Assembly: GCA_037951105.1 (NCBI GenBank)
Contig: JBAMJV010008075.1
Span: forward strand, 1 to 64,000
Length of the DNA stretch: 64,000 bases
Reading direction: 5' to 3'
Source of the DNA: Echinarachnius parma
Taxonomy: Eukaryota > Echinodermata > Echinoidea > Clypeasteroida > Echinarachniidae
Under the pieces are notes generated by a model, which was not told where the DNA came from, ran no database searches, and was given only the letters and a program-made list of their open reading frames with translations. Position numbers and translations under genes: made by a program. Within the stretch, counting starts at the first letter, position 1; each line of letters starts with the position of its first letter. Below are positions 22,470 to 64,000 of the stretch, in pieces.

Positions 22470-22706
22470 TATTCTGATCGTTGTGCTGAACAATAATGTG
22501 ATCACCTTTCCTTAATTTTAAACCTGTAGTTATGAGTAAAAAGTTTTTATCATGGTTTCTGGTTTCTTTGTCAAGTTTTGAACTTTCATCCTTTTTTGTT
22601 TGTATTTGTTAGTTAAATAATATAGAAGTAATAAGTGTATTTTAATTTGATTGTGTGTTGTGTTTGTGATTGTGTGTTGCTAACGTGCGAATGTGAAAAG
22701 TGAAAT

Positions 22707-38692: not shown

Positions 38693-38809
38693 CACGGGCG
38701 TAGACATGACATTGATACCCATTCAACTGGGGGGATGATCGATTCATTCACCCCCCCCCCCCCCCCCCCCCCCAGTTGAATAGGTATTACGTTAGTCGCT
38801 ACGCCCGTG
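38693..38809. mobile_element. Poly-G/C hAT-type mini-MITE, copy 3
   Basis: 117 bases with perfect 8-base duplication CCAGGTAC (38685-38692, 38810-38817). Ends CACGGGCGTAGAC and CTACGCCCGTG are inverse; core has CATTCAACTGGGGGGATGAT and a C tract of about 24. This is the best-preserved copy of the family. Confidence 0.92.
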
Positions 38810-38817
38810 CCAGGTAC

Positions 38818-40371: not shown

Positions 40372-40374
40372 AAA

Positions 40375-41483
40375 ATGATGCTGAAGAAGCTGCATCATGG
40401 ACACCAAGGAATAGAGAAAACCAAGAGGCTGGCACGTGATGTGATGTTCTGGCCTGGGGTGAACGGTGACATCATAGACATGATACAACGATGTGATGCT
40501 TGCAGCACTCACGGAAACAGCAACATCAAAGAACCATTACACCGTCTTGACATTCCACAGAGACCATGGCAGAAAGTTGGCACTGATTTGTTGGCGCATC
40601 ATGGTGCTAACCGGCGCTATTTGTATTGTGAACAATGCTCTACCCCCCCCCCCCACCCCCCCCCCCCAAATGCATTGTGTTTTCGGATGGAATCGTTGCG
40701 CCTGATGGTGCTGTGTACATGGTTCTGGTTGACTACTATTCCAACTTCTTTGAGATTACCAAGTTGTCAACCACAAACAGCAACGCAGTGATTGCCGTGT
40801 GCAAACAGCAGTTTGTGCGACATGGAATACCAGCAGAGGTTGTCTCGGATAACGGGCCACAGTATGCCAGTGCTGAGTTCCGTTGCTTCAGTGAAGAGTA
40901 TGGTTTCCGACATACAACTTCATCCCCATTGTACCCCCAGTCGAACGGGAAGGCTTAAAGGGCAGTGCAGACAGCGAAGAATCTTCTCAAGAAAACAGCT
41001 CATGAAGGTGGAGATGTCTATCTTGCTCTGCTGACACTGCAGAACACCCCAGGTGACTGGCTTCCATCACCGGCACAAATGCTCATGGGGAGGAGGATCA
41101 ACACTTCGCTGCCCACGACTAACAAGCTCCTGCAACCTCACACAGTTAGTAGCACACTCGCTCAACACAGAAAGCAGGAGCTCCAGAAGAGGCAGAAGCG
41201 ATACTATGACCAGGGTGCCAGGTCGCTGCCGGTGTTGAAGTCTGAAGAGCGTGTATACTACAAAGTATCGTACCATATCAAGAGTGAGAAAGGTGGGCGG
41301 TATCGCAGGAACAGAAATCATCTAAGGAAGCGTCTGGCACCTGAAGGTAACATCCATGTTCCAGCAGACGAGGAAACGGAGGTATCAGAAGCGTGCTGGA
41401 GTGAAGCGAAGCCGCCCTCGCAAGAACGTGACTGGCACTACCCACTTCGACGTCGCAGACCCCCGGATATATTAGATTTGTGA
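40375..41483 (+). pseudogene. Ty3/gypsy integrase, active-site Glu lost to a stop
   Basis: H2C2-type zinc region HHGHQGIEKTKRLARDVMFW … CDACSTHG (40393-40515), first catalytic Asp in WQKVGTDLL (40575-40600), a 96-base insertion at 40609-40704, then [12 protein letters not shown] and the second Asp in [11 protein letters not shown] (about 40840-40870). The third catalytic residue, expected as Glu after QSNGKA, is a TAA stop (40955-40960 region). The C-terminal part continues in frame, RAVQTAKNLLKK, TPGDWLPSPAQMLMGRRI, to a GPY-like region ending 41483. Confidence 0.85.
40609..40704. mobile_element. 96-base poly-C insertion in the integrase
   Basis: Flanked by the perfect 8-base repeat ATGGTGCT (40601-40608, 40705-40712). 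Contains two C tracts. The ends AACCGGCGC and (inverse) CAGGCGC share only GGCGC, so the TIRs are weak; hAT-like by duplication length. Confidence 0.72.
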
Positions 41484-44132: not shown

Positions 44133-45869
44133 ATGGATCCAGCTGAAACAAAATTAGAATTTGCTATTTCTATTACCATACTGTGCTTATTGAATCATAT
44201 ATACTGTGTCCAGAGTTCTTTCAACATACCAGTGATAGCTGGTCGAAAAGTGCCATTGACGTGTCATCTGCCAAACAGTTCTGATGACGTGACTTGGACC
44301 TATCTAGAGGACGGAATTGACGTAACAATTGCAAACTGCAATCTTAACAAACGAGCATGTAAAGGCCTCTTTGAATATACTGATGACTATTCTGCTACAG
44401 CAAATTTTAGTTCATCTGTATTAGTGATCAATGTCAGTGAACAAATCGCACAGCGAAAACACAAGTGTAAATTGGGAGACGAAGTGTTAGAAACTTTCAA
44501 TTTGATTACAAGAAACATCCACCCGCCGCAATGCAATATTGAACCTGTGATAGAATCAGAAAAATACGACTCAACAAAGATTGAACTGCTCTGTGAATCA
44601 GAAGTTCCTGGAGGCATCAACTCGCGAATGGAGATAGATGATTGTGGAAGCCCAATGTCAACAAATGACACCATGATAGGGAAACGTGCGGATCTCCAGA
44701 CCCTGAAGGACTGTAATATCTCTTGTCATTTATCATTTCCAAATATCCAGCTGGAAACTCAGAACTGTTCTTTCCCATCCCTGGTCGACATTCATATTGC
44801 TCAAAGACAGAAGGGGATCGTGATTAAGTGCGACGTTGCATCATCGAGTGGTGAACCAAATATTAAATGGAGGCTCCTGGATCCACGTTCTGGCGAAGTC
44901 GACATCCAGACCCGATCATGGACACGAGTTGGTGGGAAGTTGTTGCTGGAGGACATCGATGGCGATGATATCGGCAGACTGGTCGAGTGTCGGGTTTACT
45001 CAACAAGCAGCAATATTATGCCTAGCGTAATGTCAATCGGTTATGTGGAAGTTACAGGACAATATTACATTACAACTGATTCACCTAGCTCCTTCGAGTC
45101 AAGAACAACTTCTGATGGCACTGCTCTTGATGGTACGGATTCGTACATAGTCGGAATCATAGTCATGAGTTTTTGCTTCGCAGTAGCTATGTGCTTCATG
45201 ACCACTTGGATATACACCTTGTATAAAGGGAAGTCACTTCTTAACGTTTTGCTCTGGCCAAGAAATGTGTGTTACACTAGTAGTAACTCAAACAATATTC
45301 AAACCATTTCTTTGGAAAACCTCCATTCAGGTGCAAGGGAATGTATTCGGAAGGAGCAAACAGGTAATACCAGCAGACCAATCTCAGAAGCAAACAGCGT
45401 TTGTCGTTCACAAGGTGGTGGATATGATGATCTAATCGTGCAAGGATTGCAGCCCGAAGCTGACCAACCCGAAGACAGCATCTACTTCTGCGTCGAAAAC
45501 TCGTCTCCAGAGTCTTGTCGATCTCAGAAGATGACGATGATGACACCAGAGACGCAGAATGAGCATGACTTCCATATGTCTTCGCGTCCCGAGTTACATC
45601 AAGACTCTACGACTACCGAAGAGGAGGAGGATGGAAGCAAGTACAAGGGTTATACATACGACTCCAACATCTATGCAGATATTGACGAAACCTACAAGAA
45701 ATCGCGACGATCTCAGATGATCGCGAAGACGATGCCAACGACGTCAAAAAGCCAGAACGATGATCATATGACTTCTTCTCTGGAAGCATATGAGTCCATG
45801 AATGTGGATGAGGGGAAGGATGACAAGGGCTGTGGAGCCGCCGCAGATATGTACGCAGAAATCAACTAA
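44133..45869 (+). CDS. IgSF type I receptor A with long tyrosine-motif tail
   Basis: An uninterrupted 578-codon frame. Residues 1-28: signal peptide (hydrophobic FAISITILCLL). Residues about 30-127: V-like Ig domain with C44, W55 and C112 (KHKCKLG), an extra pair C69/C76, and no FGxG J-like motif. Residues 130-225: cysteine-rich middle (C134, C154, C171, C194, C198, C212). Residues 226-310: membrane-proximal Ig domain with C233, W246, DDIGRLVEC (C286). TM helix about 338-361 (GIIVMSFCFAVAMCF), uncharged. The 217-residue tail holds SIYFCV (Y451, ITIM-like), YDDL (Y431), IYADI (Y514), YESM (Y553, PI3K-site-like) and MYAEI (Y574), which look like SH2-binding sites. Several N-glycosylation sequons (N48, N91, N195, N211). 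No intron is needed. The ATG matches pseudogene B. The family is not one I can name; ligand and function unknown, signalling role inferred. Confidence 0.9.
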   Translation: MDPAETKLEFAISITILCLLNHIYCVQSSFNIPVIAGRKVPLTCHLPNSSDDVTWTYLEDGIDVTIANCNLNKRACKGLFEYTDDYSATANFSSSVLVINVSEQIAQRKHKCKLGDEVLETFNLITRNIHPPQCNIEPVIESEKYDSTKIELLCESEVPGGINSRMEIDDCGSPMSTNDTMIGKRADLQTLKDCNISCHLSFPNIQLETQNCSFPSLVDIHIAQRQKGIVIKCDVASSSGEPNIKWRLLDPRSGEVDIQTRSWTRVGGKLLLEDIDGDDIGRLVECRVYSTSSNIMPSVMSIGYVEVTGQYYITTDSPSSFESRTTSDGTALDGTDSYIVGIIVMSFCFAVAMCFMTTWIYTLYKGKSLLNVLLWPRNVCYTSSNSNNIQTISLENLHSGARECIRKEQTGNTSRPISEANSVCRSQGGGYDDLIVQGLQPEADQPEDSIYFCVENSSPESCRSQKMTMMTPETQNEHDFHMSSRPELHQDSTTTEEEEDGSKYKGYTYDSNIYADIDETYKKSRRSQMIAKTMPTTSKSQNDDHMTSSLEAYESMNVDEGKDDKGCGAAADMYAEIN

Positions 45870-46118
45870 AGCCCAGTGCACCCTTGGCCAGAGCAGAATC
45901 AACACGACTCGACTCGATCCGACTGGTTTGCAGTCAGACCAGAGCGAGTTAATAGAGATGAGACAGACTAGAGTCAGACCTGATTAGTTGGGGCCGATTC
46001 AACATATTGAATCGGCCCCAACTAGCTCCCGAATGGCAAATTAGGAAATCATCACTCACTGAGCCGATCCATCTGATCCAGTCGGATCGGGTCCAGTCGG
46101 CTCTGTGTGCTTTGGGCT
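45870..46118. mobile_element. PIF/Harbinger-like MITE at the stop codon of receptor A
   Basis: 249 bases starting AGCCCAGTGCACC and ending GTGCTTTGGGCT, flanked by TAA at 45867-45869 and 46119-46121. TAA/TTA three-base duplications are typical of PIF/Harbinger elements. The left TAA is the stop codon of receptor A. The interior has GACTCGACTCGATCCGACTGG with an inverse counterpart and a hairpin (next entry). Confidence 0.72.
45985..46024. repeat. Perfect 18-base hairpin
   Basis: TAGTTGGGGCCGATTCAA and its exact inverse are separated by CATA (46003-46006). It lies in the MITE and therefore in the likely 3' UTR of receptor A, where it would form a stable RNA stem. Confidence 0.9.
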
Positions 46119-47339
46119 TAAACCAACTAGGAGCACTATAAGAATTATTGCCTTTCCCAATCTTCGGAATGTTGCTTTATATACAAATCTATAGTTTTTA
46201 TCAGTATAACATCATTAAGTTGTAATGCTTTTGAAGAATAATTATAGTTCTCTGATAGTGGTCATATACATATACAACGTGACAAGAAATTATATGATCA
46301 GTCACCTTCCTCATAAATTAATGTGCTTATTAACATTGTCAATGAAATATTGAAGTAATAATGTAAAAACGAGAAAACACAATTCGGTATTGTTGTTTAT
46401 TCCAGGCTTTCGACATTGTTTTGAATGATAGCAATAATGAGAAGCAGCAAATCAATACGATTCCTTGTCCTATATTCTAAAAAGTGTCTAATAAGAGGAA
46501 CACAGTGAGACATGATAGAACCACTGGATTTGCAAGTGAGTTTGCAGGGTTCAGACAGTTACTTGATCAATATATAAGTACCACTTGTAAGAACTTCTAG
46601 TATGTGAACATTTAAAAAGAAAAATGTACGTTTATCAACTAGACATTGTGTTAGACTTAGATCACATCTCTCTCCCTCCCCTTCTCTCACTTTGCCCCTT
46701 TCTGTATCAAGTAGTCGTCTCCATCTTTAAACAGTTATCTCTCCTCATTCCTCCTCCCCCTCTCTCTGTACCTATCTTTCATCCAGAAATCATGTTGTTC
46801 TTTGCCTGGTGGTCCCCTTTATACGCTTTAGGTCCTCTCAATATTTGATAAGTAGGCCTACTCTAATGACACGTTTCTTTTTAAATTGGTGACTGTTATG
46901 CATCTCGACATTTAATTTAGCATTCTGTGTATCATTATTTTTGCTAAATGTAAAAATACATATCTTTACGCATGTCAACTCTACTTCTTATGTGCTACTA
47001 GTATTGGAAATATTGTTAAAAATGAAAATAACAAAACTTGAACTCTATAATATATAATTGCACTGATACACTATAAATTAAACAAAATCACTAGATTAAA
47101 TTAAATGCATTAAAATGTAATCTTGTATTAGTTCCTCTAAATATTTTATGACAAGCACGCATATATACTCTCACGTTATGTATCTCTTCTTTTTTAATCC
47201 AATTGGTTATATATCATAATTTTATGTATTTTAGTACAATTTTTGTTGTTGATATACTGTAAACTATTATGCTAGAATTTCAGCTACAACTAACCCGTTT
47301 CGGAAAAATGTGTTTTTGGCTTACCGTGTATTTTACAGT
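46119..47339. other. 3' flank of receptor A, start of duplicated noncoding block
   Basis: No gene. 46866-46990 (ATGCATCTCGACATTTAATT, CTGTGTATCATTATTTTTGC) matches 59298-59420 and 61420-61540. 46616-46800 (CCATCTTTCATCCAGAAATC) is a diverged copy of 47690-47910. Confidence 0.65.
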
Positions 47340-48477
47340 CTAAGAGTTAACGCAATAATTCTTGTCAGCCTCTATGGTACAACAATTACATTCAGGTGAA
47401 TAACGTGTGTGTCTTTTATAGGTCTTGGTACGAAAAGGGCAGTATTAATGATTTGTTAGATGAAGACGGTACATTTTTGTCACGCAATAAATTTAAATTG
47501 AAATATCATTTTTTTTTTTGCAATAATTTGGACTATATGAAGCAATACAATCTGGTTGCAATAACCATAGTAGTATTTTTTTTGATGGAGCAGCCTTTAA
47601 GATTGCGAGGGGCGTTCAATACGTTCATAGCCGGACGTGCTATATAAGCACCATGTGTAAATACTTCTAGTACATGTATATGACAATTAAAAAGAAAAAT
47701 GTATGTTTATCAGCTGTATATAATATTGTATATTATGTATAAGATTAATAATCAATTGATGTATTATGCTAGATCACATCTCTCCCTCTCTCCCTCTTTC
47801 CTTCACCCCCTTTGCTCCTGTCTCAAAGCATATTTCCCTCTCTTTATATATGTATCTCTCCTCAGTCCCCCTCCCCCTCTCTCTGTACCCATCTTTCATC
47901 CAGAAATCATGTTCCCTCGCAATTTTCATCTTCCCGTTTTAGTCATAATGTCTCTTTTTGTTAATTGCACTTTTATAAGACAAAGATTTTGACAGAAATG
48001 CTTATTATATTACCTTATGTTTACAAGTGTTATCATTGTTTTGTACAAATGATATACATTTTTATAAATGCAAAAATGAAATCGAAACTATATATTTATG
48101 TAATTGCACTGATACACTATAAATAGAAAATAAATCAATTTGAAAATGGATACTCTCCGAAATTAATCACTAAATTAAATTAGATTTATTCCAATGTAAT
48201 TCCGTATTACTTCCTCTATATATATGAACATGTGCTCTCATGATATGTATCTTTTTATAAATCATATTTAATTGTGCATTATATGCATTTTTGTGTTCAT
48301 TTGTTTGGTGTTTATATACTGTATCTGGCTGTCATGTAAAAATGTTGTATTACCAAAAAAATGCAGGGTAACAGAAGTACATGCATATACTTGTACTCTT
48401 ATAGTTCTTAGATATATTTTCATAGAGCATTTATGAAATAATGTTCATAATCGCAGTGTTATTGTAGTTTATTTTAC

Positions 48478-48660
48478 CATAATAATAATAATAATAATAT
48501 AGCTTCTTATCTAGCGCTAAATACATAAATGTTTCATAGCGCTTTACACTATTATTACCCCGGTCATAGGATACAATGCAAACCATCACACATTGTGTGC
48601 ACCATCTCCACTCCCTGGGGAGCATTCCTTCCAAGCGTCATAATAACCACTGTAACCATG
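48478..48660 (-). mobile_element. SINE-like short dispersed repeat
   Basis: Begins with (TAA)n at 48479-48500, then AGCTTCTTATCTAGCGCTAA, ATAGCGCTTTACACTATTAT and GCACCATCTCCACTCCCTGG. The AGCGC…GCGCTTTACA pattern with a simple-repeat tail is common in short retroposons of marine invertebrates. Absent from the matching site in the second block (near 62000), so it is an insertion. Confidence 0.5.
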
Positions 48661-48799
48661 GATAAAACTAGAAGTATCCATGCTGTAACTAATGTATATG
48701 TGATGTAAAAGTACTGGTAAGAAGAAATTTATTTACTATTGAATTAAAAGTATAGTAGAGATTGTGCTCACTGCACATACAAAAAGAGAAAAGTTCCAT

Positions 48800-49060
48800 G
48801 GCCGAGATTCTACTTTTAAGTTAGTCCAGCCTAAAGTGCTAACTAAGTGTTGACTAACCCCCAACAAAGTTGATAACTTTAGTCCGGACTAAAATGTCGT
48901 ATAATTCTGGTAGGCCTGTTGATGACTTTAAGCCAGTTTGCAGGTTAAACTAATCTCAGATGTGGACTAAAGTGTGGAATAGTTATTCCAAGGTTATGAA
49001 CTTAGTCCAGCCTAAGGTGATAAATTTAGTAGAATACCACCCCATGTGTTTTTTGCCTGT
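48800..49060. repeat. TAGTCC-rich short repeat
   Basis: Direct and inverted occurrences of TTAGTCCAGCCTAA and AGTCCGGACTAAA between 48820 and 49020, with ATTCTACT near the left and TAGTAGAAT near the right edge; probably a small MITE. Boundaries are unclear. Confidence 0.45.
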
Positions 49061-49587
49061 TATCACCAAACATTAAACAAATAAACTTGCACTTACTTGC
49101 ACTTACAAGTTATTTTATGTGTCATAATTTGATGCATGTACATGTTACATATAAACACATTATTCCTTGCAAGTATCTCATACTCATGCATTTTGCCTGT
49201 TATTATGACTTGAATTGTGTAAATTGTGTAATTTCTATCTTATTTATATGTAACCATTTTATCTTTCAATATTATTGCAATATGATTTTTGTTTTGACTT
49301 ATTACCAATCATTGTTTTGATTACATTTGTAATCACATAATTTTTTATTCTACTGAAATGACGTGTTCTCGTTTGTCATGTTTCTTGCTGTTAGTGAATA
49401 TGTAAAAATCTTGTTACTTTAAGTTTATTTTATGCTAATTGCTGATTATATATTTTTCTGTGTTTATGTTCTCTCGTATGATTTCTGTTTTAATTATTTA
49501 ATTTGTTTTACCGTTTTGGCTGTCGTGTGTAAAAAAAATTTAAAAATGTATACTTGATGCAGGAATTATACATGTATACTTAATGTC

Positions 49588-49703
49588 CAAGCATTGGAGG
49601 TCCATATAATAAAATAAGATGGCTACTAATGCATTTTCTCCAACTGGTTTAGGTGGTTTGACTTGTTTATACCAGTTGAAGAAAATGTATAATTGACCTC
49701 CCT
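49588..49703. repeat. 116-base inverted-repeat element
   Basis: Outer GGAGGTC / GACCTCC and inner CATTTTCTCCAACTGGT / ACCAGTTGAAGAAAATG pair around a 22-base loop. Noncoding. Confidence 0.65.
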
Positions 49704-51187
49704 ATTTGATTGTACGTGTATTTAAGATGCTCTTATGAGTCGTTGCATATATTGTAATAATGTCTTAATCTCCATTATCTTAGTAATCTTGTTTATTTTA
49801 TCACCGTGATAATACATTAAAAGCGTACATGTATGACAAAATTGATTTACTATTGAAATAAAAGTTTAGTAGAGATTGCGCTGCACATCAAAAAGGTAGA
49901 ATTTCCATGTGTTTTTTGTTTTGCCTGTCAACACCCCAAAATTACTCACATTTAGGCAAAACTAAACTTGCACTTACAAGTTGTATTATGTGTAAAACAA
50001 CTTGTGCATAAGTTGATGCATGTACATTTACACTACACACATCATCCCTTGCAAGTATCTCATACACATGCAAACATACAAAACTCTCAACACAATTGTG
50101 TTTACATGTTCATAAAAGGGGAGCCAATACTGGCATTTTTGCTTAATGTTACTAATTAGTTCATAATTCCTATCGATTTTAGTCTTATTCCCTTTTGGGT
50201 ATCACTAATACTGGAAATACAATCAGTGTTTTTTGTAACCACTATAATCTGTTTTGACTGAACAGTGGAGGCTGATATGTTTTCAAATGGTACCTCATGA
50301 AACGTCATTTGATTTGCACTAACAAAAGCTGGTTATAACCACTGATATAGCAGCAGATTCAACAACATCAGTTACATCCCTTCTTTTGTTAGTACACGCT
50401 TAGATGCGTTTATATGACGTTCCATGCGGTACGGTTGGAAAACATGGCAGCTTCCAGTGGCCAGTCGAACCAATTGATAGTGGTTTCAAAAACATTGATT
50501 TATTTCCATTATTAGTGATACCCAATACAAATCAAACGACTAGACGTGACAGGAATTATGCACTTATCAGTAACAGTAAGCAAATATTCCAGCATTTTGC
50601 TTCCCTTTAAACTCCCCCAAAACAAAAAACAAAACACACACAACAAACACAATAAGCTAGATTCAAAAGGAGTGCTCTTTTTATTTTACATAAAACTTGT
50701 AAAATACACTCATTCCCCTATTCAAACCATTCCTTTGTATTTCATGGGACATTAATAATAAAAACATAATTTGTAACTAGGGTGTTCATATTATTTGTAT
50801 TCAAAATATCCATTACCTTAATCATACAATTGACCTTTAAGAAAGTACATATTTGTTCATGTAATGAAATGCACCTTATTACATTAGGGCCCATATTCAT
50901 AACACGATAAAACCATACTAGCGTGGTTCTATTATAAGTCAATTTAGATCATTGTAGACTAAATATGAAACATGATTTAGACTAAGTATGCAACAAGAAA
51001 TCCTGTTAGTTGCTGACTATATAGGGTTAACTTAGTTGATACAAATGTTTACCCATATGAACACTTTGTGTCGCTTACTTAGCCTGATCATCTAAAATAA
51101 ATTGCGAATGGAACTAAGCTAGCACATCAAAAGATAAAAAGACAAAGAGAAACAAAATTAGGTTAGAGAGTGTTCATTTTTGTTTAA

Positions 51188-51729
51188 AGTGATCCAGGTA
51201 AAGTGTCTAACTCCACGAAAAATACTTGGAGCTTCCTCGTTTCTCTTCTGCCGTGTTGTTTAGCTTATGGTAAGAGAACAATAAAATAGGGTTCGATTTT
51301 TTCAAATGCCCCTTTAGTATGAAGATAATTATCATTGAAAATCATTATTTCAAAAGCGTTAGCAACGGTTTTGATAAAAAATACAATTGTCGTCGCTGAA
51401 TACGTCCGGCCAGCACGCGTGGGAAATTTTCCCGACCCACTGAACTTTGAGCCGACCGTGCGCAAATTCCATGAATTCCGTTCAGTCTGTAAACATACAC
51501 GGGTGCGGATATCGTCAACGGATGATTATTACTGCGACAAATGTACGGCAGGCCATCAGTATTCGGTGATAAAATATGAACTCAATATTCGTTTTTTCCC
51601 GAGGTAAACAGGGTTCGTTTTTCTTCAAACTTTCACACATCTTTTAATTGTATATTACAATAATATTGACATAGGATTGAAGTCTCAAATGTCTCTTTCG
51701 GCAGAATTTTACACTTTACATGCATGCCT
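51188..51729. mobile_element. TTAA-flanked MITE, family 1, copy 2
   Basis: 542 bases, TTAA at 51184-51187 and 51730-51733. TIRs: left AGTGATCCAGGTAAAGTGTC, right inverse AGGCATGCATGTAAAGTGTA. Body matches 693-1242. The duplicated block downstream of receptor C has the empty site TTTTTGTTAATAACA at about 63374-63388, with a single TTAA (63379-63382). Confidence 0.92.
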
Positions 51730-51849
51730 TTAATAACACATAAAACTAATAAGATGCACTAGTAGTGTAAACACTCCTTCATTCAACAAATGTTCACATC
51801 ATAAACTCGTAGAATATTACTCAAAATTGCAATGTTTTTCAACTTATTA

Positions 51850-52348
51850 TCTTATTTTGTACTTGTATTTACATGTATTTACACCAACCAGGCTTTCAAG
51901 ATACATATATATAGGGAGTAGTTTCGGATGAGCGGTAAAGGAGAAAGGAAATGGGGAGTGGAAAGAGAGAGGGGTCGGGGTAAATCCCGGGTAAATATGG
52001 GGGAGGGAGAGGGGAGAGATATAATGATGTATATGGAGAGAAAGGGGAATGACTGATATGCGGATATTCACTTTGTTCAGGGGTGAATGATTCGATCACT
52101 CCCCTGAGCAGATGAATAAGCTTGCAATCGCCCGCTGTGACGGGTGTGACGGTGGGAGATGGGATGTCAGCCTCCATAAAAGATAGATTAATTAGATAAT
52201 ATATCAATGATTAAGTTAAAAGAGAGATGAATTATCACCGTCCTTCGATTGATAGCGTGACACTATTGTTTCGGTTGATCACTTTTCTGATTGAGCTTTC
52301 AAAACCAATCAATGATCTCACACTTACCCCAAAATAATTCAAACCATG
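51850..52348. other. Purine-rich low complexity and repeat flank
   Basis: 51905-52060 is GGGAGAGA-type purine-rich DNA. 52240-52348 (TTCAAAACCAATCAATGATC, CCCCAAAATAATTCAAACCA) recurs at 54040-54096 and 63884-63936. No gene. Confidence 0.65.
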
Positions 52349-52490
52349 TTTAAAGAAAGTGATAGTTCAGTTTTGGTATAGAGGGCGCGACACAAAATAA
52401 TGTTTTTGTGAAATAATAAAAACAAAACTGAGTGTCAAATTTGAAAGAACATACAATTTTAATGACAGAATAAACAGAAATTTTTAACAC
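52349..52490. mobile_element. T2/Kolobok-like TTAA MITE, truncated copy
   Basis: Follows TTAA with AGAAAGTGATAGTTCAGTTT and GGTATAGAGGGCGC, tracking 54101-54232, then diverges at GAATAAACAGAAATT. The palindrome and the right half are missing. Confidence 0.75.
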
Positions 52491-52499
52491 AACTTTGAA

Positions 52500-52860
52500 C
52501 ACCACAAACAAAAGGATCAAAAATAAGAAATAGAAAAAGTGGCCCCCAAGTGGAAGGAGAGAGGGGGACACAGAGAGGGGGTGTTCAGGGTGTGAATGGA
52601 TATTCACAAAATAAATAGTTTTCATTTGCGCCGTCAGCGGGGAATGGGTGTGGGGGATGAAATAATTAGCTGAAATAAATAAATGCTGTAACAGACAAAT
52701 TAAACATGTATAGAAAGACAAAGCGGGTGTCAGCCCCCACAAAAAAAAAGATTAATTAAGGCACCGTGCATCGATTGATAGCGTGCATGACACGATAGGA
52801 TATAGTTTGTGTTGCCTGTGTAATTGCTCTTCTCATTACCACTATATAAGTGCAGGGGTT
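52500..52860. other. Gene-free interval
   Basis: GGGGGA-rich patch (52555-52660) and the flank TGACACGATAGG … CTATATAAGTGCAGG (52790-52860), which matches 63758-63830. No gene. Confidence 0.55.
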
Positions 52861-52867
52861 GAAATAT

Positions 52868-53985
52868 AGGTTTTCCCGGGCAATTTCGCTATTTTCTCAT
52901 GCAATTTCATATCAGCAGCATTCAATTTCACCAAATCCGCGTTTGGGTCGACACATCGTAATTCAAATTCGTTTTTAGTCATTCATATTGAGTTACGGAG
53001 CAACCAATTTCACACTTGCGTCATTCCAATGTAAGCGATGGGCGCTCGTTTTCGTTAATGGTCATTCAAATTCATCTCTAGCAGTCTCCGGTCTCATTGC
53101 GGTCATTCAAATTCGCGCATGGGCAAACAAGTTCATTATAATTTCATTCAAATTAAACATGTACAGTGGAAATGTACTGGATATGTAACATCATGGTATA
53201 TGGTACAGTCATTTCGTGCATGGGCAATCAATAAACAAAACACGATGGAAATATAGATACAGATTATGAACAAAATAATGATAAATTAAGATCAGATGAT
53301 GACAAAAAAGAAAATGTGATGAAAATAAAGATCAAAATGATGATATCGCATGATGATAAAGTAAAGACATGATGAACGAATAGAGGTAACACAAAAAGAA
53401 AGCAAAATGTGAAATGAATATGAAATTATTGAACATTGAAAAACAAATCTAAACAAAATGTGACTGATGAATATCGAAAAGTGAAGATTAAATGTTGAAA
53501 GTATATCTGAAAAGGGAAAGACGATGAAATGGTCGAGACTATGTAAGGAAAAATAAACCAAAGTCATCGTATGTCATGTATGTGTGTGTTTGTATAGTGT
53601 GTGTGCGTATATATATTGTACATGCATGTAAATATGTTTATGTGTGAGTACGTATTGATGTTGTTTGAGTATCTTAAATCAAATGAACATTTCTGGAAAT
53701 TGGTCACCCATTAACGAAATTGAATGACCAAACGAGCGATTGTCAAGCTTGCCATATTAAATTGAATGCCCATTTGTTGAAAATAGCGCCCAATGATGAA
53801 ATCGAATGCCCATTTGCGAATTTGAAGTTCGCGATTTGACATTTGAGTGTCCATATACGAATATGCATGCTCGGAATATGAATTTGAATGACCAAAGCGA
53901 CTCCTCCACGGCAATTGAACGAAATTGAATGCACATAAACGAATTTGGGCGCGTAATGTTAGAAATTGGCCGGAAAAACCTATAA
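52868..53985. mobile_element. TIR element with ATTCAAATTCG motifs
   Basis: The ends read inward as AGGTTTTCCCGGGCAATTTC and AGGTTTTTCCGGCCAATTTC, with AT/TA flanks. Both ends carry many copies of TTCAAATTCG-like motifs (left forward, right inverted: CGAATTTGAA). The second duplicated block has continuous sequence here (AAGTGCAGTGATTGCAATAA, about 63812). No transposase is recognised in the centre (53180-53690). Confidence 0.72.
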
Positions 53986-54100
53986 TAGCGACAATTATTT
54001 AGGTTTGCTTGTTTCGATCTATCACTTTTCTCATTGAGCTTTCAAAACCAATCAATGATTGATCTGACACTTACCCCAAAATAATTCAAACCATGTTTAA

Positions 54101-54634
54101 AGAAAGTGATAGTTGAGTTTTGGTATAGAGGGCGCTACACAAAATAATGTTTTTGTGAGATAATAAAAAAAAACTGAGTGTCAAATTTGAAAGAACATAC
54201 AATTTTAATGACAGAATAAACTCAGTTCGGAAATGGCTGAAATATCCATAAACATAACCATTTGTAATAATTGTGGGGCCCCACAATTATTCGATAATTT
54301 AAAAAGATGCTTCTTCTTTAAAAAAATGTACAATAGAGGTTTTTAAATAGTTGTTGATTATCTCACGATCTAATCACTATTTCCACAAAACATTACTGCA
54401 CAATATTTTATTTTAAATGTTTGAAACCAATGAGATTTTAGAGAGCGCCCTCTTGAGTGTTAACGGCTCTTTTTGAATGATAACAGGCTTTTTACTTTGT
54501 CATTTGTAATGTTCCATTCCTTTCGAGCATGGTAGAGTTATAATTATTATTTTGTAATGTAATATAATGGTGCAGGTTACTTAAATTCAGTTTGACCAAG
54601 ACTGTTCTCTCTTTACCAAGACTCAACTATCCCT
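54101..54634. mobile_element. T2/Kolobok-like TTAA MITE, copy 2
   Basis: 534 bases, TTAA at 54097-54100 and 54635-54638. Left end AGAAAGTGATAGTTGAGTTT, right inverse AGGGATAGTTGAGTCTTGGT. It carries the 26-base palindrome at 54266-54291 with the same GGGGCCCC centre as copy 1 but different arms. Its right TTAA is shared with the next element. Confidence 0.88.
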
Positions 54635-54638
54635 TTAA

Positions 54639-55354
54639 AGGTTGGCTGACAAGAAAACTACTTAAAAATTGTGTTTTACTGTATCTAAGGTAGATTTTCA
54701 TGAAGATTACTAATAAAAACATATTTTCCGCGTCGGAAAACACAGTAAAATAAAAAAAATCAACTTTTAAATTCACTTTAGTAATCCCCGTAAAAAAATT
54801 GAGTCCGGGCGAAGAAAAATGACGTCATCTTTGTGACGTCACATGCAGGCAATCGCAGTATAGCTCGGTCATAGACGTACACGCTGAGTGCAATACTCAC
54901 GTTGACAGAGAGATATTATTTCGATTTTTTTCAATTATTTGCAAACATTTGTTAAAGTTTATATCATGGACGATCTACACTCAGATGTGTTGCTGCAAGC
55001 TGCTATAATTCATTTCTTAGGAATTTTCAGTTAAGCCTCAATTTACAAGCAAAAACGAGTTTGTTTTACTAGCAAGTCATAGGCTCTGCATGTAAACCAT
55101 GCACGTTCCTCCGTGTTGCGGTCATGCTTGTGATGTCATGATCCAGGTTGCACGTGCGCACATTCCCGCTACGCTATAAATAACTTTTTTAGCAGCATGG
55201 AACGCCGATGCGTATAAACAAGCAAAAAGGTTGCATGAAATTTACCTTTTTTGCCCAACTTAAGGATTTCTTTGAAAAGAAGAGTGTGGTATATCAATAT
55301 AGGCACATATTTAAAGCTATAAACCTGAATGAAAGCCGGGATTTCACCATACCT
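54639..55354 (-). mobile_element. Internally deleted Kolobok-like element
   Basis: 716 bases between TTAA at 54635-54638 and 55355-55358. Read on the minus strand: 5' end AGGTATGGTGAAATCC, a segment matching 14153-14500 up to the start of the THAP reading (ATG mutated to ATT; KCIVAGC-like reads IIAACSNT), then directly the 3' segment matching 31250-31616, ending AGGTTGGCTGACAAGAAAAC inverse. The transposase body is deleted. Links the THAP 5' end and the acidic 3' end into one family. Confidence 0.75.
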
Positions 55355-55358
55355 TTAA

Positions 55359-55690
55359 TAGACTGTACGTATAATTATTACCGGTACGTTACTTATGGTA
55401 CACATTTGAGCATCTGTGGTTGGCCCACACTCTGGGAAGGAGGTTGCATGGGGTCGGAAATGATTCACATTAGGGCAGACTGCATCAAAATCGTGTGCAT
55501 GTATTAGTAGTTTGGTCTTTTATTTCTCATAGAGCTTATACTATTTATAAATTATCGACCTCACACGTCTCATATACGTAATATATCTGTTGTATGTGTT
55601 TGTTTTTTTGTGTTTTTGTTTGGGGGGGGGGGGGGGAGGGGGGGGGGGGGTAGCCAACAGAGGGTGTGGCTATGCATCAGACTAGAAGAT
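55359..55690. other. Gene-free interval with poly-G
   Basis: Contains a 30-base G-rich tract (55622-55651). No gene recognised. Confidence 0.6.
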
Positions 55691-55699
55691 GATGCAACT

Positions 55700-56640
55700 A
55701 AAAGGACTTTTATTCATGATGGTGAATATTCCTGACACCATGGATGGTGTAGGCCCATTTGACATACTTTCTCTTGTTAGTGACATGAAGAACTTGTAAT
55801 TGTTGTGGATTGAACTGCATCAGCCAGCCTTTTCACACGTCAGTATTGCGTCAATGTCTTGTAGCAGCAGTCTTGAGTCAGCTTCTGTGTATATTTTGCC
55901 GTAGCGAGCATGCATTCATCTGCAAACATGCGTACAGAGCAGCCTTGTGACACATATTCCGGCAGATCGTTGATGACTATGATGAAGAGTAGGGGACCAA
56001 TCACGCTTCCCTGCGGTACACCAGATGTGACAAAAGCACTACCTGATGAAGGTCCGTCTAGAACAACTATTTGGCTCCGATTTTTGATGAAGTCTGCGAT
56101 ACATCGATGGGTAATTCCACAGATCCAATAGTGCTGAAATTTGTGCGGTACTTTGTCAAAAGTTTAAAAGAAGTCAAGGAGGATGACATCATGTTGCTCT
56201 CTTTTGTCTATCCCCTTGGCAAGGTCTTGGATTGCTGAGATGATTTGTGTCTTACAGGAGCGTCGTTTACGGAATCCATGTTGACTGTCTGACAGGATGT
56301 TCTAGGTCTCAATGTGTTTCATGATGGCACTACTGACAATATAAGAGTTTACAAGCAAAATATGTGAGTGATATTGGGCGATAGTTTTCTGGGCTGCTTT
56401 TTATCCTCTTTCTTAAAGATGGGTGTCACATCTGCTCTGCGCCAGTCGTCCGGAATTACTCCTTGGTTGAGAGAGGATTAGAAGAGTAGCGTAAAGACAG
56501 GAGTGAGTTCCAAGGCCAATTCCTTCATAAGTCGAGCAGGTAGTTTGACAGGTCCGGTGGCTTTATGTGGTTTGGCTGTCAGTGTGTAAAATGTCATCCG
56601 TTCCCTTTAGTGGAAACACTCCAGGTTAGTCTGTCTGCTC
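55700..56640 (-). pseudogene. LINE reverse transcriptase relic
   Basis: Minus-strand readings in several frames: [74 protein letters not shown] and FADEC in place of FADD. This is the RT of a jockey/CR1-type LINE with many frameshifts and stops; no frame exceeds about 70 codons. Old and inactive. Confidence 0.8.
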
Positions 56641-56644
56641 CATA

Positions 56645-57225
56645 ATCGTTTTGGATTTCATGTAGAGTCTGGGCTGACTATGTTGGTAAGATAGTCATCG
56701 TGAGCATGATTTCAGGCTGACCTTGTATTTTTCTTCAGTTCCTGATATCTAGCGAAATCAGCTGGTAACTAGGTTCTCTTAGCTTTTGTAAAAGGCCTCT
56801 TCTTTTGACGGGTGAGACGCTTCAGAGGAGTGGTGATCCATGCTTGATGGAAACGCGTCGATGACATCTTTAATGGGACAAGACAGTCTTGCAGTCACAC
56901 ATTTGCTCACTCTCCTTGACAGGGTAACAAAATAATATACGTTTGGTTTCATATCCGGGTTATATCTCACTTATAAGCTTTCGATACCACCAAGTAATGT
57001 GTTTTCCGGCGTCTATGTCACATACCCAATAACACTATAGTTTGATTAATACATACTTGTACTTCGTGACTACAAATGTATAGGCCTACAAGCGATACAA
57101 ACATTAGTTTAGTTTAGATCCAACACATACATGGGCCACACAACCAAGGAGAGCCTTTAATTTCCTACTTTGTTAAATCGCTCTGAAAAATCTTATCCTT
57201 TTAACATTTGAATAACAGTTAGAAG
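56645..57225 (+). promoter_or_regulatory. 5' flank of receptor C
   Basis: Gene-free. 57060-57225 directly precedes the ATG and contains CCAACACATACATGGGCCACA, similar in style but not clearly alignable with the A and B leaders. Any promoter here is inferred from position only. Confidence 0.35.
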
Positions 57226-58389
57226 ATGGATCAAGTTGGCAGAAATATGGGATTTTCCGTTTCTAATACAATTCTCTGTCTACTGGTTCTGCCACGTTTG
57301 TGTGTGCATGGTTCTGTCAATAAATCAGCGTTAGATGGTCAACAAGTTTCTCTGGCGTGTAGTCTACCAGACGATTTTTCTGATGTGACTTGGGTCTTTC
57401 TAAAACAAGGAAGATTTGAAACGCAGATTACTATATGTGAACGTAAGAATCCTCCTGCAGTATGCTATGTAGATGAAGAGTATTCTGATGACTATTCTGC
57501 TTCGGCAAATATTAGCACATTTGTGTTAGTGATCAACGTCACGGGGGCACACACACAACAAGAATATAGGTGTAAATTGGGAAACGAAGTGTTGGAAACT
57601 TACAACTTGATTGTAATCGACCCAGGAGATATTCACCCACCCACATGCAACGTTGCCCCTGTGATAGAATCAGATATGTTCGACTTAACCCATATTGAAC
57701 TTCAGTGTGAATCAAGAGTTCTTGAAGACATCAAGACACGACTGGAGATTAATGCATGTGGAAACAAAAACAAAACAGAAGCCTCATCCTTAGCGAAGCT
57801 TGTTGACTGTCAAACTCTACAGGTCTGCAATGTATCTTGTCAGATGTCATTTCATAACATCATTAAAAGACAGAATTGTTCTTTCCCATCCCTGATCGAC
57901 ATTCGCATTACTCAGAGACAACAAGGGGTCGTGATCGAGTGCAACGTTGAATCATCTAGTGGTGAATCAAATGTTATTGAATGGAGACTCCTGGATCCGC
58001 GTTCTGGTGAGCAAGTTGAGGTCGACATCCAGACCCGGTCATGGATCCGAGATGGTGGGAGGTCATTGTTGCTGGAAGACATTGGTGATGATGACATCCG
58101 TAGGGTGGTCGAATGTCGAGTTTACTCATCCAGCAGCAACTGGTCTGGCGTGCAGGCAATCGGTTATGCGGTCATTAAAAGACAATACCACAAACTGACC
58201 GATTCGTCTACCTTCTTAAAATCTAGAACAATGTCTGTGAGCAATATTCCTGGTAGCAAAGTTTATAATATTTCTGACGTCTTGATCATTGTCCAGAGAC
58301 TTTGCTTCGCAGTAGCTACGTGCTTAATGTTCACTTGTGTTTACGCGATATATAAAAGAAAGACCCCCTCGAGGATTCGCCCTCGTTAA
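57226..58389 (+). CDS. IgSF type I receptor C, short tail, Arg in TM helix
   Basis: A 387-codon uninterrupted frame. Signal peptide 1-29 (NTILCLLVLPRLCVHG). V-like Ig domain with C45, W56, extra C71/C80 and C116 (YRCKLGNEVLE). Cysteine-rich middle. Membrane-proximal Ig domain with VVIECNVESSSG, EWRLLDPRSG, VDIQTRSW and DDDIRRVVECRVYS, very close to receptor A. TM helix about 352-374, VLIIVQRLCFAVATC, with Arg358 inside the segment where A has MSF. The tail is about 13 residues, KRKTPSRIRPR, without tyrosine motifs. The N-terminal domain is the most different part from A. Short tail plus basic TM residue is the known design of activating receptors that pair with ITAM adaptors; this role is inference. 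Downstream DNA retains a decayed long tail. Confidence 0.88.
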   Translation: MDQVGRNMGFSVSNTILCLLVLPRLCVHGSVNKSALDGQQVSLACSLPDDFSDVTWVFLKQGRFETQITICERKNPPAVCYVDEEYSDDYSASANISTFVLVINVTGAHTQQEYRCKLGNEVLETYNLIVIDPGDIHPPTCNVAPVIESDMFDLTHIELQCESRVLEDIKTRLEINACGNKNKTEASSLAKLVDCQTLQVCNVSCQMSFHNIIKRQNCSFPSLIDIRITQRQQGVVIECNVESSSGESNVIEWRLLDPRSGEQVEVDIQTRSWIRDGGRSLLLEDIGDDDIRRVVECRVYSSSSNWSGVQAIGYAVIKRQYHKLTDSSTFLKSRTMSVSNIPGSKVYNISDVLIIVQRLCFAVATCLMFTCVYAIYKRKTPSRIRPR

Positions 58390-59205
58390 ATACAATTGGG
58401 TAACACTAGTAATGTTTCAAACGATAGTCGAAATATTTCTTTGAGAAATCTAGCTGGTGCAAATGAATGTGATCAGATAACAAACGTTTAATGCCAGCAG
58501 TATACAAATCTAAGAAGCAAGCAAAGTTTGCCGTTCACAGGATGGTGGTGATAGGGTGAAGTTCAAGCATCCGAACAACTGTGCCCAGCAATGATCATGC
58601 ATTACAACCCGAAGCTGACCAACCAAAATAGAGCTTCTGCGTCTGAGTCGAAAAGTCGTTTCCCATGCATTGCCGATTTCATACACAGAAATACAATACT
58701 AGAAAGCAAAATTTCAGAAGACAACCACAACGACGACGTTAAAGAATAGTGAGATGGGCATGATTAATATAAATGTGGGTCTTCGTGGCCCGAGTTACAC
58801 CGAAAGTCTTTGTATACCTAATAATTGATGAAGGATGTAGGCGACATTAATGTACATACAGATATTGACAAATCTGTCAAAGAGTCATCTCTCAAATATT
58901 GGCGATCTAAGCAGATTACGGAGACGAATCAGACGATGACAACGACGTCAACGACAGAGCGACGGAACGGTGGTCATACGTCTTCCCGTCCCGAGATATA
59001 TGAGGGGCTATGGATGAAGGTGGGGGAGAGAATAGCCGATATACACGAGTACTGTCTACGATTAACTGTTACTGCATATGGACCAAATGATGGGATAAAT
59101 CTCCAGCATGTGAACTTTAAAACAATAGATTCTACAAAACAATTATTGCACCATTATAATTTTCATAAGTTCACATATCCGTTAACAAGTTCAATGCATA
59201 TTTAA
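58390..59205 (+). pseudogene. Decayed long cytoplasmic tail of receptor C
   Basis: DNA after the stop still aligns with the tail of receptor A. 58400-58560 matches 45270-45420 (GTAACACTAG…, TTTCTTTGAGAAA, ATGCCAGCAG…GCCGTTCACA), then LQPEADQP-type and SFCV readings near 58605-58640 with stops. The open piece 58825-59205 reads NVHTDIDKSVKESS where A has NIYADIDETYKKS, HTSSRPEIYEG where A has HMTSSLEAYES, and ADIHEY where A has ADMYAEI. So the two YxxI tyrosines became His. Multiple stops and shifts intervene. Not translated unless spliced in some way. Confidence 0.75.
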
Positions 59206-59950
59206 AGTTAATTAATGTAAAAATTGTAGCATATTGACACATTTTGAGAGTTACCTATAGCTTTGCTCTGAATTGGGAATAAATATACGTTATCTAATGA
59301 CACGTCTCTTTGTAAATTGGTAATTGTTATGCATCTCGACATTTAATTTTGCATTCTGTGTATCATTATTTTTGCAAAATGTAAAAATACATATCCTCAC
59401 GCATGTCAACTCTACTTCTTATGTACAATTGGAAATATTGTTGAAAATGATAATAACTTGAAACTAAAATTGAAACTATATAATATATATAATTGTACTA
59501 ATACACTATAGATAAAAAATTATCACTAGATTAAATTAAGTGCATTCAAATGTAATATTGTATTAGTTCCTCTAATTTTGTTTGTGTTAATATCCAATTG
59601 GTTATATATCATAATTTTATGTATTTGAGTACAATTGTTGTTGTTGATATACTGTAAACTACTATGCTAGAATTTCCGCTACAACTAACCCGCTTTGGGA
59701 AAAATGTATTACATTCAGGTGAATAACGTGTGTGTCTTGTATAGGTCTTGGTACGAAAAGGGCAATATTTGTATTAATGATTTGTTTTATGAAGACGGTA
59801 CATTTATGTCACGCAATAAATTAAAATTAAAATATTTTTGCAATAATTTGGACTATGTGAAGCAATACAAATCTGTTTGCAATAACCATAGTAGTATTTG
59901 TTTGTGTTAAATGGAGCAGACTTTAAGATTACGAGGGCCTTCAATAAGTT
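59206..59950. other. 3' flank of receptor C, duplicated noncoding sequence
   Basis: 59298-59420 matches 46866-46990; 59695-59910 matches 47390-47600, including GGTCTTGGTACGAAAAGGGC and CAATAATTTGGACTAT. No gene. Confidence 0.65.
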
Positions 59951-60614
59951 CATGGGTTAATTAATGCTGTGTATGCAATGTTGCATCCTTTACATGGTCA
60001 GGGATGCAAAGCCAGGGGGTGTATTCTGAAAACGAATGTATTGTATCTACGTCATATCTACGTCACAAACATATATTTTAGCAAATCACTATTCCGTAAG
60101 TACAGTTGAATATTTTAGTGACGTAGATATGACGTAGATACAATACAGTTTAATCTAAAATCGTTTTCAAAATTCACACCCTGATTAAAGGGTTTTCTCA
60201 ATATTTCTTGTCAGCCTCTATGGTACAATAATTACATTCAGGTGAATAACGTGTGTGTCTTTTATAGGTCTTGGTTTTTGGTTATAGGTCATGGGTTAAT
60301 TAATGCTGTGTATGCAATGTTGCATCCTTTACATGGTCAGGGATGCAAAGCCAGGGGGTGTATTCTGAAAACGAATGTATTGTATCTACGTCATATCTAC
60401 GTCACAAACATATATTTTAGCAAATCACTATTCCGTAAGTACAGTTGAATATTTTAGTGACGTAGATATGACGTAGATACAATACAGTTTAATCTAAAAT
60501 CGTTTTCAAAATTCACACCCTGATTAAAGGGTTTTCTCAATATTTCTTGTCAGCCTCTATGGTACAATAATTACATTCAGGTGAATAACGTGTGTGTCTT
60601 TTATAGGTCTTGGT
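59951..60614. repeat. 339-base tandem duplication, apparently near-identical
   Basis: Unit 1 is 59951-60289 and unit 2 60290-60614; I see no differences over the roughly 320 shared bases compared by eye. Both start CATGGGTTAATTAATGCTGT and contain the whole MITE described next. Confidence 0.9.
60013..60184. mobile_element. 172-base palindromic MITE (two copies by tandem duplication)
   Basis: Starts CAGGGGGTGTATTCTGAAAA and ends as the inverse of CAGGGTGTGAATTTTGAAAA; inner arms TGTATTGTATCTACGTCATA / its inverse TATGACGTAGATACAATACA. The second copy is 60352-60523. No clear target duplication. Confidence 0.82.
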
Positions 60615-63500
60615 ACGAAAAGGGCAGTATTAATGATTAATTTAGATATACTGAAGATGGTACATTTTTGTCAGGCAATATATTTCAATTGAAATATCAT
60701 TTGTTTGCAATAATTTGGACTATGTGAAGCAATACAATCTGGTTGCAATAATCATAGTGGCATTTTTGTTTAATGGAGCAGCATTTAAGATTACGAGGGG
60801 CGTTCAATAAGTTCATAGCATGACGTGCTATACATGTATAAGCACCATGTGTAAGTACATGTATGTGACAATTAAAAATAAAAATGTATGTTTATCAACT
60901 GTATATAATCTTGTATAATATGTATTAGATTAATAATCAATTGATGTATTGTGCTAGACCACATCTCTCCCTCTCTCCCTCTTTCCTTCACCCCCTTTGC
61001 CCCTGTCTCAAAGCATATTTCCCTCTCTTTATATAGTTATCTCTCCTCAGTCCCCCTCCCCCTCTCTCTGTACCCATCTTTCATCCAGAAATCATGTTCC
61101 CTCGCAACTTTCATCTTCCCGTTTTAGTCATAATGTCTCTTTTTGTTAATTGCACTTTTATAAGACAAAAATTTTGACAAAAATGTTTATTATATTACCT
61201 CATGTTTGATCATTGTTTTGTACAAATGATATACATTTTTATAAATTCAAAAATGAAACCGAACACCGATACTTGTGTAATTGCAGTGATGTGCAATACA
61301 TAGAAAATAATCACTTGAAGACAGACACTCCTCAAAATTAATGACTAGACATTCAAGATGTTCTATTAAAGTCTCTTTTAGTAATACGCTTTGGGTCCTC
61401 TCAATATTTGGTAAGTACTCGAATGACATATTTCTTTTTAACTTGGTAACTGTTATGCATCTCGTCGTTAAATTTTGCATAATGTGTACTATAATTTTTG
61501 CAAAATGTAAAAATATATATCTTAACGCATGTCAACTCTACTTCTTTTGTTCAATTGGAAATATTGTTCGAAAAAGAAAAGAAACTGAAACTAAAATAGA
61601 AACTATATAATATATATACTTGCACCGATACGCTATAAATAGAAAATAAATCAATTTGAAGATGGATACTCTCCAGGTATAACTAATTGCTAGATTAAAT
61701 TAAATGTAATCAAACGTACTCTAAATATTTCATGACAAGCACATGTACTCTCATGATATGTATCTCTTGTTATATCCAATTGATATATATCATAATTGTA
61801 TGTATTTGTGTACAATTTGTTGTTGTTGATATACTGTAAACTATACTAGACTTTTTAGCCATCTGGCCGTAATGTGTAAACGTTGTATACAATAAGATTT
61901 ATATGCATAAGCAGTATACTTATACTCTTATGAACTGTTAAGATATATTTGTATTGATCATTTATGATATAATACACCATTGCAGTGTTGTAGTTTATTT
62001 CATCATCATAATTACATATACATTAAAAGCCTACTGATGTAATGTCAACCAACATATATGACAATATTGATATACTATTGAATTAAAAGTATGTAGAGAT
62101 TGTGCTGCACATCAAAAAAGAGAGAATTTCCATGTGTTTTTTGTTTTGCCTGATATCACCCCAAAATTACTCATATTTAGGTACAAACTTGCACTTACAA
62201 GTTATTTTATGTGTACAAACTACTCGTGTCATAATTTGATGCATGTACATTTACACATAAACACATCCCTTAAACATCCCATAAACATGCATACATACAA
62301 AACTCTCAACACTAGTTTTGTGATTACATGTTCATTAAAGGAGAGCCAAACGCTGGCATTTTCTACTGTTACTGATAAGTTCATAATTCCTGTCACTTTT
62401 AGTCATATTCCCTTTTGGGTATCACTAATACTGGAAATACAAGAAATGTTTTTGTAACTACTATCATCTGTTTTGACTGAACAGTGGAGGCTTATATGTT
62501 TTCAAATGGTACCTCATGAAACGTCATTTGATTTGCACTAATAAAAGCTGGTTACATAACAGCAGATTCAACAGCTTGTGTTAGTGCACGCTTAGATGCG
62601 CTCAGTGACGTTCCATGCGGTACGGTTTGAAAACATGGCAGCTTCCAGTGGTCAGTCAAACCAATTGATAGTGGTTTCAAAAACATTGATTTATTTACAT
62701 TATTAGTGATACCCAATACAAATTAAACGACTAGACGTGACAGGAATTATGCACTTATCAGTAACAGTAAGCAAATAGCAAAACAGTTTTGCTTCCCCTC
62801 AAAACAAAAAAACAAAACACACACAACAAACACAATAAGCTAGATTAAAAAGGAGTGCTCTTTTTATTTTACATAAAACTTGTAAAATACACTCATTCCC
62901 CTATTCAAACCATTCCTTTGTATTTCATGGTACATTAATAATAAAGACATAATTTGTAACTATGGGTGTTCATATTATTATGTATTCAAAATATCCAATA
63001 TCTTAATCATACAATTGACCTTTAAGAAAGTACATTTTTGTTCATGTAATGAAAAGCACCTTATTACATCAGGGCCCATATTCATAACACCATAAAACCA
63101 TACTAGCTTAGTTCTATTATAAGTCAATTTAGATCATTGTAGACTAAATATGAAACATGATTTAGACTATAAGTATGCAACAAGAATCCTTTTAGTTGCT
63201 GACTATATAGGGTTAACTTAGTTGATACAAATGCTTACCCATAGTGACTATGAAAACTTTGTGTCGCTTACTTAGCCTGATCATCTAACATAAATTTGGA
63301 ATGGAACTAAGCTAGCACATCAAAAGATAAAAAGACAAACAGAAAAACAAAACTAGGTTAGAGAGTGTTCACTTTTTGTTAATAACAAATAAAACTAACA
63401 AGATGCACTAGTCGTGTAAACACTCCTTCATTCAGCATATGTTCACATCATAAACTCGTAGAAGATTACTCAAAAGTGCAATATGGTTTTTAACTTATTA
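60540..63500. repeat. Segmental duplication, copy next to receptor C
   Basis: Matches 47340-51850 in order: CT-rich stretch at 60965, GCATGTCAACTCTACTTCTT at 61523, CCCTTTTGGGTATCACTAAT at 62410, GTTCCATGCGGTACGGTT at 62610, TTGACCTTTAAGAAAGTACA at 63015. Lacks the SINE-like insert and the TTAA MITE, giving their empty sites. No gene in this interval. Confidence 0.85.
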
Positions 63501-64000
63501 TTTTATTTTGAACTTAAAATGTAAATCAATGAAGCCGCGAGCTATCGAATCTGGCAGATTATTCTTCAGACGTATACATGACAGCTAACTATATACTAAA
63601 CATAGAATTATATACATACACAGGTAGGTGGAAGGTGCGACCAGCAACAAGCTGGAGTGAACAAGAACAGAATGATGGGGAAACACCTTGTGAGGTGGGG
63701 GGATGCATACCCTGCACCCCCCCCCCCCCCCCCCCCCGTTGTCTACGCCCCTGGCGTGACACGATATGATATTTCTGTTTCATGTGTTGCTCTTCTCATA
63801 ACCCTGTATAAGTGCAGTGATTGCAATAACATAATGACAATTCACATTTGATTGTTTCGGTCTACCACTTTTCTCATTGAGATTTCAAAACCAATCAATT
63901 ATTGATCTCACACTTACCCCAAAATAATTCAAACCATGTTTAGATTAATATACTGTTAATTATCACTATAATTATGGTACACATTGGAGCAACCGTGGTC
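63501..64000. repeat. Continuation of duplicated flank, with a poly-C mini-element
   Basis: 63690-63752 has a poly-C core and CTACGCCCCTGG, resembling the mini-MITE family but with only one clear end. 63758-63945 matches 52790-52860 and 53990-54096 without the two transposons found there. The window ends inside this repeat. Confidence 0.65.

Follow-up and report, generated by a model that had tools for sequence, protein, structure and literature searches.

In vertebrates, a tail-less partner that carries a basic residue in its transmembrane (TM) helix and derives from a tailed receptor is a hallmark of adaptor-borne activation. We analyzed a 64,000-nucleotide (nt) stretch of the Echinarachnius parma genome (positions 1 to 64,000 of contig JBAMJV010008075.1, assembly GCA_037951105.1; hereafter, the window) that holds three related copies of a candidate immunoglobulin (Ig)-like receptor gene: receptor A, with a long cytoplasmic tail and an uncharged TM helix; receptor C, with an arginine in the TM helix and hardly any tail; and copy B, a dead hybrid. 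The short tail of C is a truncated A-type tail. We tentatively read the locus as a birth-and-death cluster of Ig-like receptors of the paired type in which C requires an adaptor; of the readings considered, this is the one that we favor, although it is possible rather than probable.

Among the closest described systems are the cattle KIR genes. There the short tails share a single origin, every activating KIR arose when a recombination put a short tail in place of the long one, and five of six activating KIR are nonfunctional (PMC4258407). Human KIR and mouse Ly49 are said there, by citation to another study, to behave alike (PMC4258407). The history of A, B, and C would parallel that of cattle KIR, in which one short tail was spread by recombination and activating copies are short-lived. 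The likeness extends to the clustering of long- and short-tailed copies, one short-tail module under different heads, dead members, and short-tailed forms with an arginine near the outer membrane face, as in C (PMC4258407); this position marks the FcR-gamma group of activating receptors (PMC4258407; PMC2413239). In cattle, however, the tyrosine of the immunoreceptor tyrosine-based inhibitory motif (ITIM) was lost by substitution (PMC4258407), whereas here a frameshift and stops cut the tail. The frame at this locus is also open without introns, and no sequence relation to KIR was detected among chains of known structure.

Tyrosine-motif receptors are already known from Hydractinia, Botryllus, and oysters (PMC12065747; PMC11999971). 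The Botryllus FcoRs are type I proteins of 520 to 610 residues with a V-type Ig domain, a sushi domain, two C2 Ig domains, a TM segment, and a long tail that carries an ITIM, a hemITAM (ITAM, immunoreceptor tyrosine-based activation motif), or YxxI/L/V; every FcoR adjoins a fester gene, and fester-family proteins without signaling motifs are thought to pair with neighboring tailed FcoRs (PMC12065747). The locus described here resembles that system in protein size, Ig-like head, TM segment, ITIM or YxxI/L/V tail, tail-less neighbors, and birth-and-death clustering. It differs from it in having a single open frame, whereas alternatively spliced exons lie between the TM and Ig/sushi parts in Botryllus (PMC12065747). 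A charged TM segment is not mentioned for FcoR or fester in the excerpt of PMC12065747, and a sushi domain had no Pfam match here at E values up to 1. Xenopus FcR-like receptors of the TM1 and TM2 types likewise combine an arginine-bearing or an uncharged TM segment with similar heads and have YxxV/L/I tails; however, their NxxR motif (PMC2413239) is missing in C, and no sequence relation was detected. Oyster CgIgIT2, too, is an invertebrate receptor of the Ig superfamily (IgSF) with a tyrosine signaling motif in its own tail, but it has five Ig domains and an ITAM (PMC11999971), while a motif scan of the A tail found no ITAM.

The genes of A and C, for which an original prediction from the sequence had proposed an inhibitory and activating pair, were found as it described them: the coordinates, long tail, and uncharged TM helix of A are correct (Table 1), and C, located 11.4 kb downstream on the same strand, keeps an A-like ectodomain and TM framework. 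Sequence comparison leaves no doubt that A and C are homologous (tblastn E value of 1e-107 or better); the proteins are 53% identical in alignment and the genes about 70% identical in self-comparison. Each has an N-terminal hydrophobic signal-like stretch and one additional strong hydrophobic segment. The predicted Arg358 of C (R358; AGA, 58297–58299) lies within that segment, seven residues into the helix from outside, in its outer third, where QRL (residues 357 to 359) replaces the MSF of A (residues 345 to 347). The equivalent position in A is S346 (AGT, 45168–45170), and the arginine is a single-base change, with AGT in A and AGA in B and C. A basic residue inside the TM segment, a mark of activating adaptor-dependent receptors, is present in C. 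Past the helix, the protein continues as YKRKTPSRIRPR, which contains no tyrosine motifs, and then stops.

The C tail had been described as essentially empty. This is true of the open frame, but the DNA past the stop is a decayed copy of the A tail. The frameshift-aware alignment of the A tail protein to this DNA scored 220, compared to 81 or less in 25 shuffles, and under strict penalties it contained seven stops and four frameshifts over positions 58387–59028. Just 1 of the 10 tyrosines of the A tail (Y553) is retained in the ruin. The C frame aligned to A under the same penalties had no stops and no frameshifts in 1131 aligned nt (57226–58356). Lesion counts vary with penalties: the strict scheme gave the four frameshifts and seven stops above with none of either in the control, lenient penalties gave seven frameshifts and four stops in matched columns of the C tail together with five spurious frameshifts in an intact open reading frame (ORF), and a harsher run of the lenient alignment gave three and three. 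Since the DNA past the C stop matches the A tail and contains stops and frameshifts, the short tail of C is a cut A-type tail, the remainder of which was lost by frameshift and stops. The possibility that it was short by design was rejected, as the DNA past the stop aligns with the A tail.

The C frame is free of lesions, whereas the 642 nt of its former tail carry 11, and this counts in favor of the paired reading. In a simulation with random substitutions, the first stop appeared in a frame of the length of C after a median of 17 of them, and in 95% of cases within 73. With about 40% of synonymous sites differing between A and C, the C frame must have been maintained by selection for most of the time since the A–C split, although C may have died recently. 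The alternative that C became a pseudogene when its tail was lost was rejected, as the lesion density of the ruin predicts about 19 lesions for 1131 nt (16 to 23 if 9 to 13 lesions are assumed for the ruin) and none was seen; this expectation assumes equal exposure time of both stretches and is silent on recent death. The pairwise A–C ratio of nonsynonymous to synonymous divergence (dN/dS) was 0.55 (0.40–0.80) for the ectodomain and 0.74, 0.50, and 0.35 for domains D1, D2, and D3 (about residues 28–126, 127–213, and 214–310 of A, with borders placed by eye from the Cys/Trp pattern). The outermost domain, D1, is the most divergent and fastest changing, with overlapping intervals; this gradient, too, speaks for the paired reading.

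A third receptor copy in the window, B, went unmentioned in the original prediction and is dead, with four frameshifts and six stops. Of the B sites that match A but not C, or C but not A, those up to position 33063 favor A in 162 of 170 cases and those beyond it in 50 of 128; the maximum chi-square of 112 was reached in none of 2000 permutations (largest value, 20). The A-like front is recent, since over residues 28 to 167 there are differences between A and B at 4 of 92 synonymous sites (proportion of differing sites, pS, 0.043) and at 15 of 313 nonsynonymous sites (pN 0.048). The middle part of B is closer to neither A nor C. The TM and juxtamembrane part is C-like (33 sites shared with C versus 10 shared with A), and the TM segment reads VPRLCFAVA, so the arginine is present. 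The local frame of B, which is entered past an insertion of 8 nt near position 33647, ends in a TAA at the position of TAA 58489–58491 of C, which lies in the own frame of C behind its first stop (58387); A is open there. The idea that B uncouples the arginine from the short tail by having a long one was rejected, since the local frame of B ends with a TAA, as in C. A long interspersed nuclear element (LINE) lies in the B tail between copies of a 12-base pair target duplication, TAATGCCAGCAC, at 33789–33800 and 36896–36907. As the mosaic shows, an A-type head was joined in B to the module of arginine TM segment and cut tail. Judging from B and C, the TM arginine and the cut tail are probably linked in both copies through one shared event.

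Two further observations concern B. Within the front parts compared (44133–44689 of A against 32531–33063 of B), D1 shows 11 nonsynonymous and 2 synonymous changes (pN 0.050, pS 0.030), which are too few for a test of positive selection. An insertion in D3 of B (33151–33256) is similar (75%) to 38692–38809 and is perhaps a small mobile element.

Table 1. Coordinates of the receptor copies and their parts in the window.
Feature	Position	Strand	Description
Receptor A	44133–45869	+	Single open frame without introns, 578 residues; signal peptide, three Ig-like domains, stalk, TM, 214-residue tail
A TM helix	45147–45212	+	Residues about 339–360; zero charged residues
A cytoplasmic tail	45225–45869	+	10 Tyr
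Receptor C	57226–58389	+	Open frame, 387 residues; ectodomain plan as in A; stop about 12 residues past TM
C TM helix	58279–58350	+	Residues about 352–375; best hydrophobic segment
Decayed A-type tail remnant behind C stop	58390–59028	+	blastn 66.9% over 290 nt, E 1.4e-19
Copy B, pseudogene	32531–33799 (self-comparison match 32469–33799)	+	A-like front up to about 33063; diverged thereafter, with C-like TM/juxtamembrane part
B TAA	33789–33791	+	46 codons past TM; local frame starting 33651
LINE in B tail	33801–36895	+	RVT_1 E 5.4e-12 in 35343–35651
B A-type tail continuation past LINE	36896–36988	+	87% over 54 nt versus A tail, E 4.7e-13, plus weaker pieces

The Ig-like assignment of the extracellular domains follows a Cys-Trp-Cys spacing judged by eye. 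In Pfam searches, Ig_3 matched A weakly and below the cut-off (E 0.0097), V-set gave a weak profile match in the front of B (E 0.076), and C had no Ig match at E values up to 1. A predicted model of D3 (predicted local distance difference test score of 60.3) shows a beta sandwich, with Ig, FN3, and C2 folds all matching it to a similar degree, and a Foldseek search with it returned no match at E ≤ 0.001. As to descent from KIR, FcR, SIRP, or LILR, a search among Protein Data Bank chains gave no significant match, the best E value for C being 0.026, to a copper ATPase.

The tail of A looks, from its motifs, like a phosphotyrosine tail. The ITIM and the YxxI, YxxL, and YxxM sites named in the original prediction are present, as the ITIM-like SIYFCV (residues 449 to 454) and YDDL, YADI, YESM, and YAEI. 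YxxI/L/V/M sites are modestly enriched (5 versus 1.6 expected, p = 0.011, uncorrected, for one of four patterns tested). The strict ITIM, [S/I/V/L]xYxx[I/V/L], by itself is not above chance: it occurs once versus 0.29 expected, a count reached in 26% of 20,000 tail shuffles.

In the paired reading, A would signal via the phosphotyrosine sites of its own tail and would more likely be inhibitory than activating. C goes back to a long-tailed receptor that a frameshift deprived of its tail, but its ectodomain was kept and so was the arginine, which lies in the outer third of the helix. If C signals at all, it would do so by way of a separate subunit that carries an ITAM and, in its TM segment, an acidic residue. 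B, now dead, is a hybrid that once joined the A head to a C-type arginine TM segment and cut tail; such a copy would be expected if a short-tail module were handed from one receptor to another, which counts for the paired reading. Ligand binding, inhibition by A, and adaptor use by C are what we infer; the copies, frames, ruins, mosaic, and TM residues are observed.

Several results weigh against this reading. No adaptor-like protein whose acidic TM segment precedes an ITAM was found among the 716 ORFs of at least 40 residues in the window, a search in which spliced genes would be missed. The single ITIM of A is at chance level, and the label "inhibitory" for A would depend on this one motif. 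Residues 355 to 358 of C read IVQR, so that the NxxR at the TM start of the FcR-gamma type and Xenopus TM1 is absent. On a simplified, rough membrane-insertion score of our own making, which is not a published predictor, the helix scored −3.2 in A, −2.0 in C, and −1.7 in C when started at R358; that is, R358 at the outer membrane border scores nearly as well as inside the helix. A common ligand of A and C is not assured, because the two are only 53% identical and D1 is the most divergent domain. The dN/dS of the ruin, 0.59 (bootstrap 0.37–0.87) versus 0.57 (0.43–0.76) in the C frame, does not by itself show relaxed constraint on the C tail; the ruin alignment was selected for similarity, which biases its dN/dS low. 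While TM arginine and tail length do not vary independently among the three window copies, as the original prediction would have it, their association is probably a single event rather than independent co-occurrences. Of the three outcomes named as refuting in the original prediction, none was seen, the first having been covered in part, by three copies with one association event. Overall, the predicted contrast of a long tail and neutral TM helix with a short tail and arginine TM helix is real, and its interpretation as an inhibitory and activating pair is partly supported. That interpretation gains an evolutionary argument absent from the original prediction; adaptor use by C and inhibition by A are putative.

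C may also be a decoy or newly dead, and an explanation of this kind, nearly as likely as the paired one, is that C is non-signaling, either as a tail-less decoy or as a dying or newly dead gene, with an arginine that the helix can accommodate at its outer border. Such a fate would agree with the loss of the tail through frameshift and stops without rebuilding, with the death of its sibling B, and with a placement of R358 at the helix border. It is harder to reconcile with the lack of any lesion in the 1131 aligned nt despite the synonymous divergence from A, and with the occurrence of the arginine in B, which makes it not private to C.

The other two explanations appear unlikely. A and C could be partners in one complex, with the short C beside a tailed co-receptor, as in Botryllus fester and FcoR; A, with its 578 residues, has a plan similar to that of the FcoRs as described in PMC12065747. 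However, the TM segment of A offers no acidic residue to meet the arginine of C, the Pfam search returned no sushi domain, and the likeness is to descriptions of fester and FcoR, not to their sequences. Somewhat less likely still, A and C could be adhesion or growth receptors rather than immune ones, their YxxM and YxxI sites feeding phosphoinositide 3-kinase or endocytosis and the arginine being partnerless. The YxxM in the A tail and the chance-level ITIM would suit such a role, and invertebrates commonly have adhesion and neuronal receptors of the IgSF (PMC11999971), but tandem copies, a mosaic, a dead member, and a fastest-changing outer domain point more towards receptors of immunity or self-recognition.

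The downstream flanks of A (46862–52352) and C (59293–63942) run colinear, with 87% identity over 2918 aligned nt, and are much closer to each other than the genes are. The flanks could be younger repeats, or the genes could have undergone exchange or diversification after the duplication. The C flank contains a near-perfect direct duplication (59947–60275 and 60286–60614, 99.7% over 329 nt). Retroelements are numerous, and those at 18401–25719, 33801–36895, 37710–41483, and 55840–56970 include LINE reverse transcriptases and an endonuclease as well as a Ty3/gypsy-like element carrying reverse transcriptase, ribonuclease H, and integrase, the class labels being our reading. A dense short-repeat array at 6957–8149 encodes (RYSEGSLFRRFVIPKV)-like peptides on several frames. 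No Rfam families or transfer RNA genes were found in the window.

Taken beyond this locus, the paired reading would lead to a broader and rather improbable proposal: that outside vertebrates, too, receptors with an arginine TM segment and a cut tail are bred from tailed ones and grafted to new heads by recombination, with the pairing of activating and inhibitory forms through a TM-charge adaptor being either of independent origin or far older than vertebrates. As part of this same proposal, A, B, and C would represent one cycle, with a source, a dead graft, and a surviving short form. If C is a true paired receptor in an invertebrate, whether paired logic is old or convergent would become testable in one species. 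If C is merely decaying, the locus would record how such partners begin.

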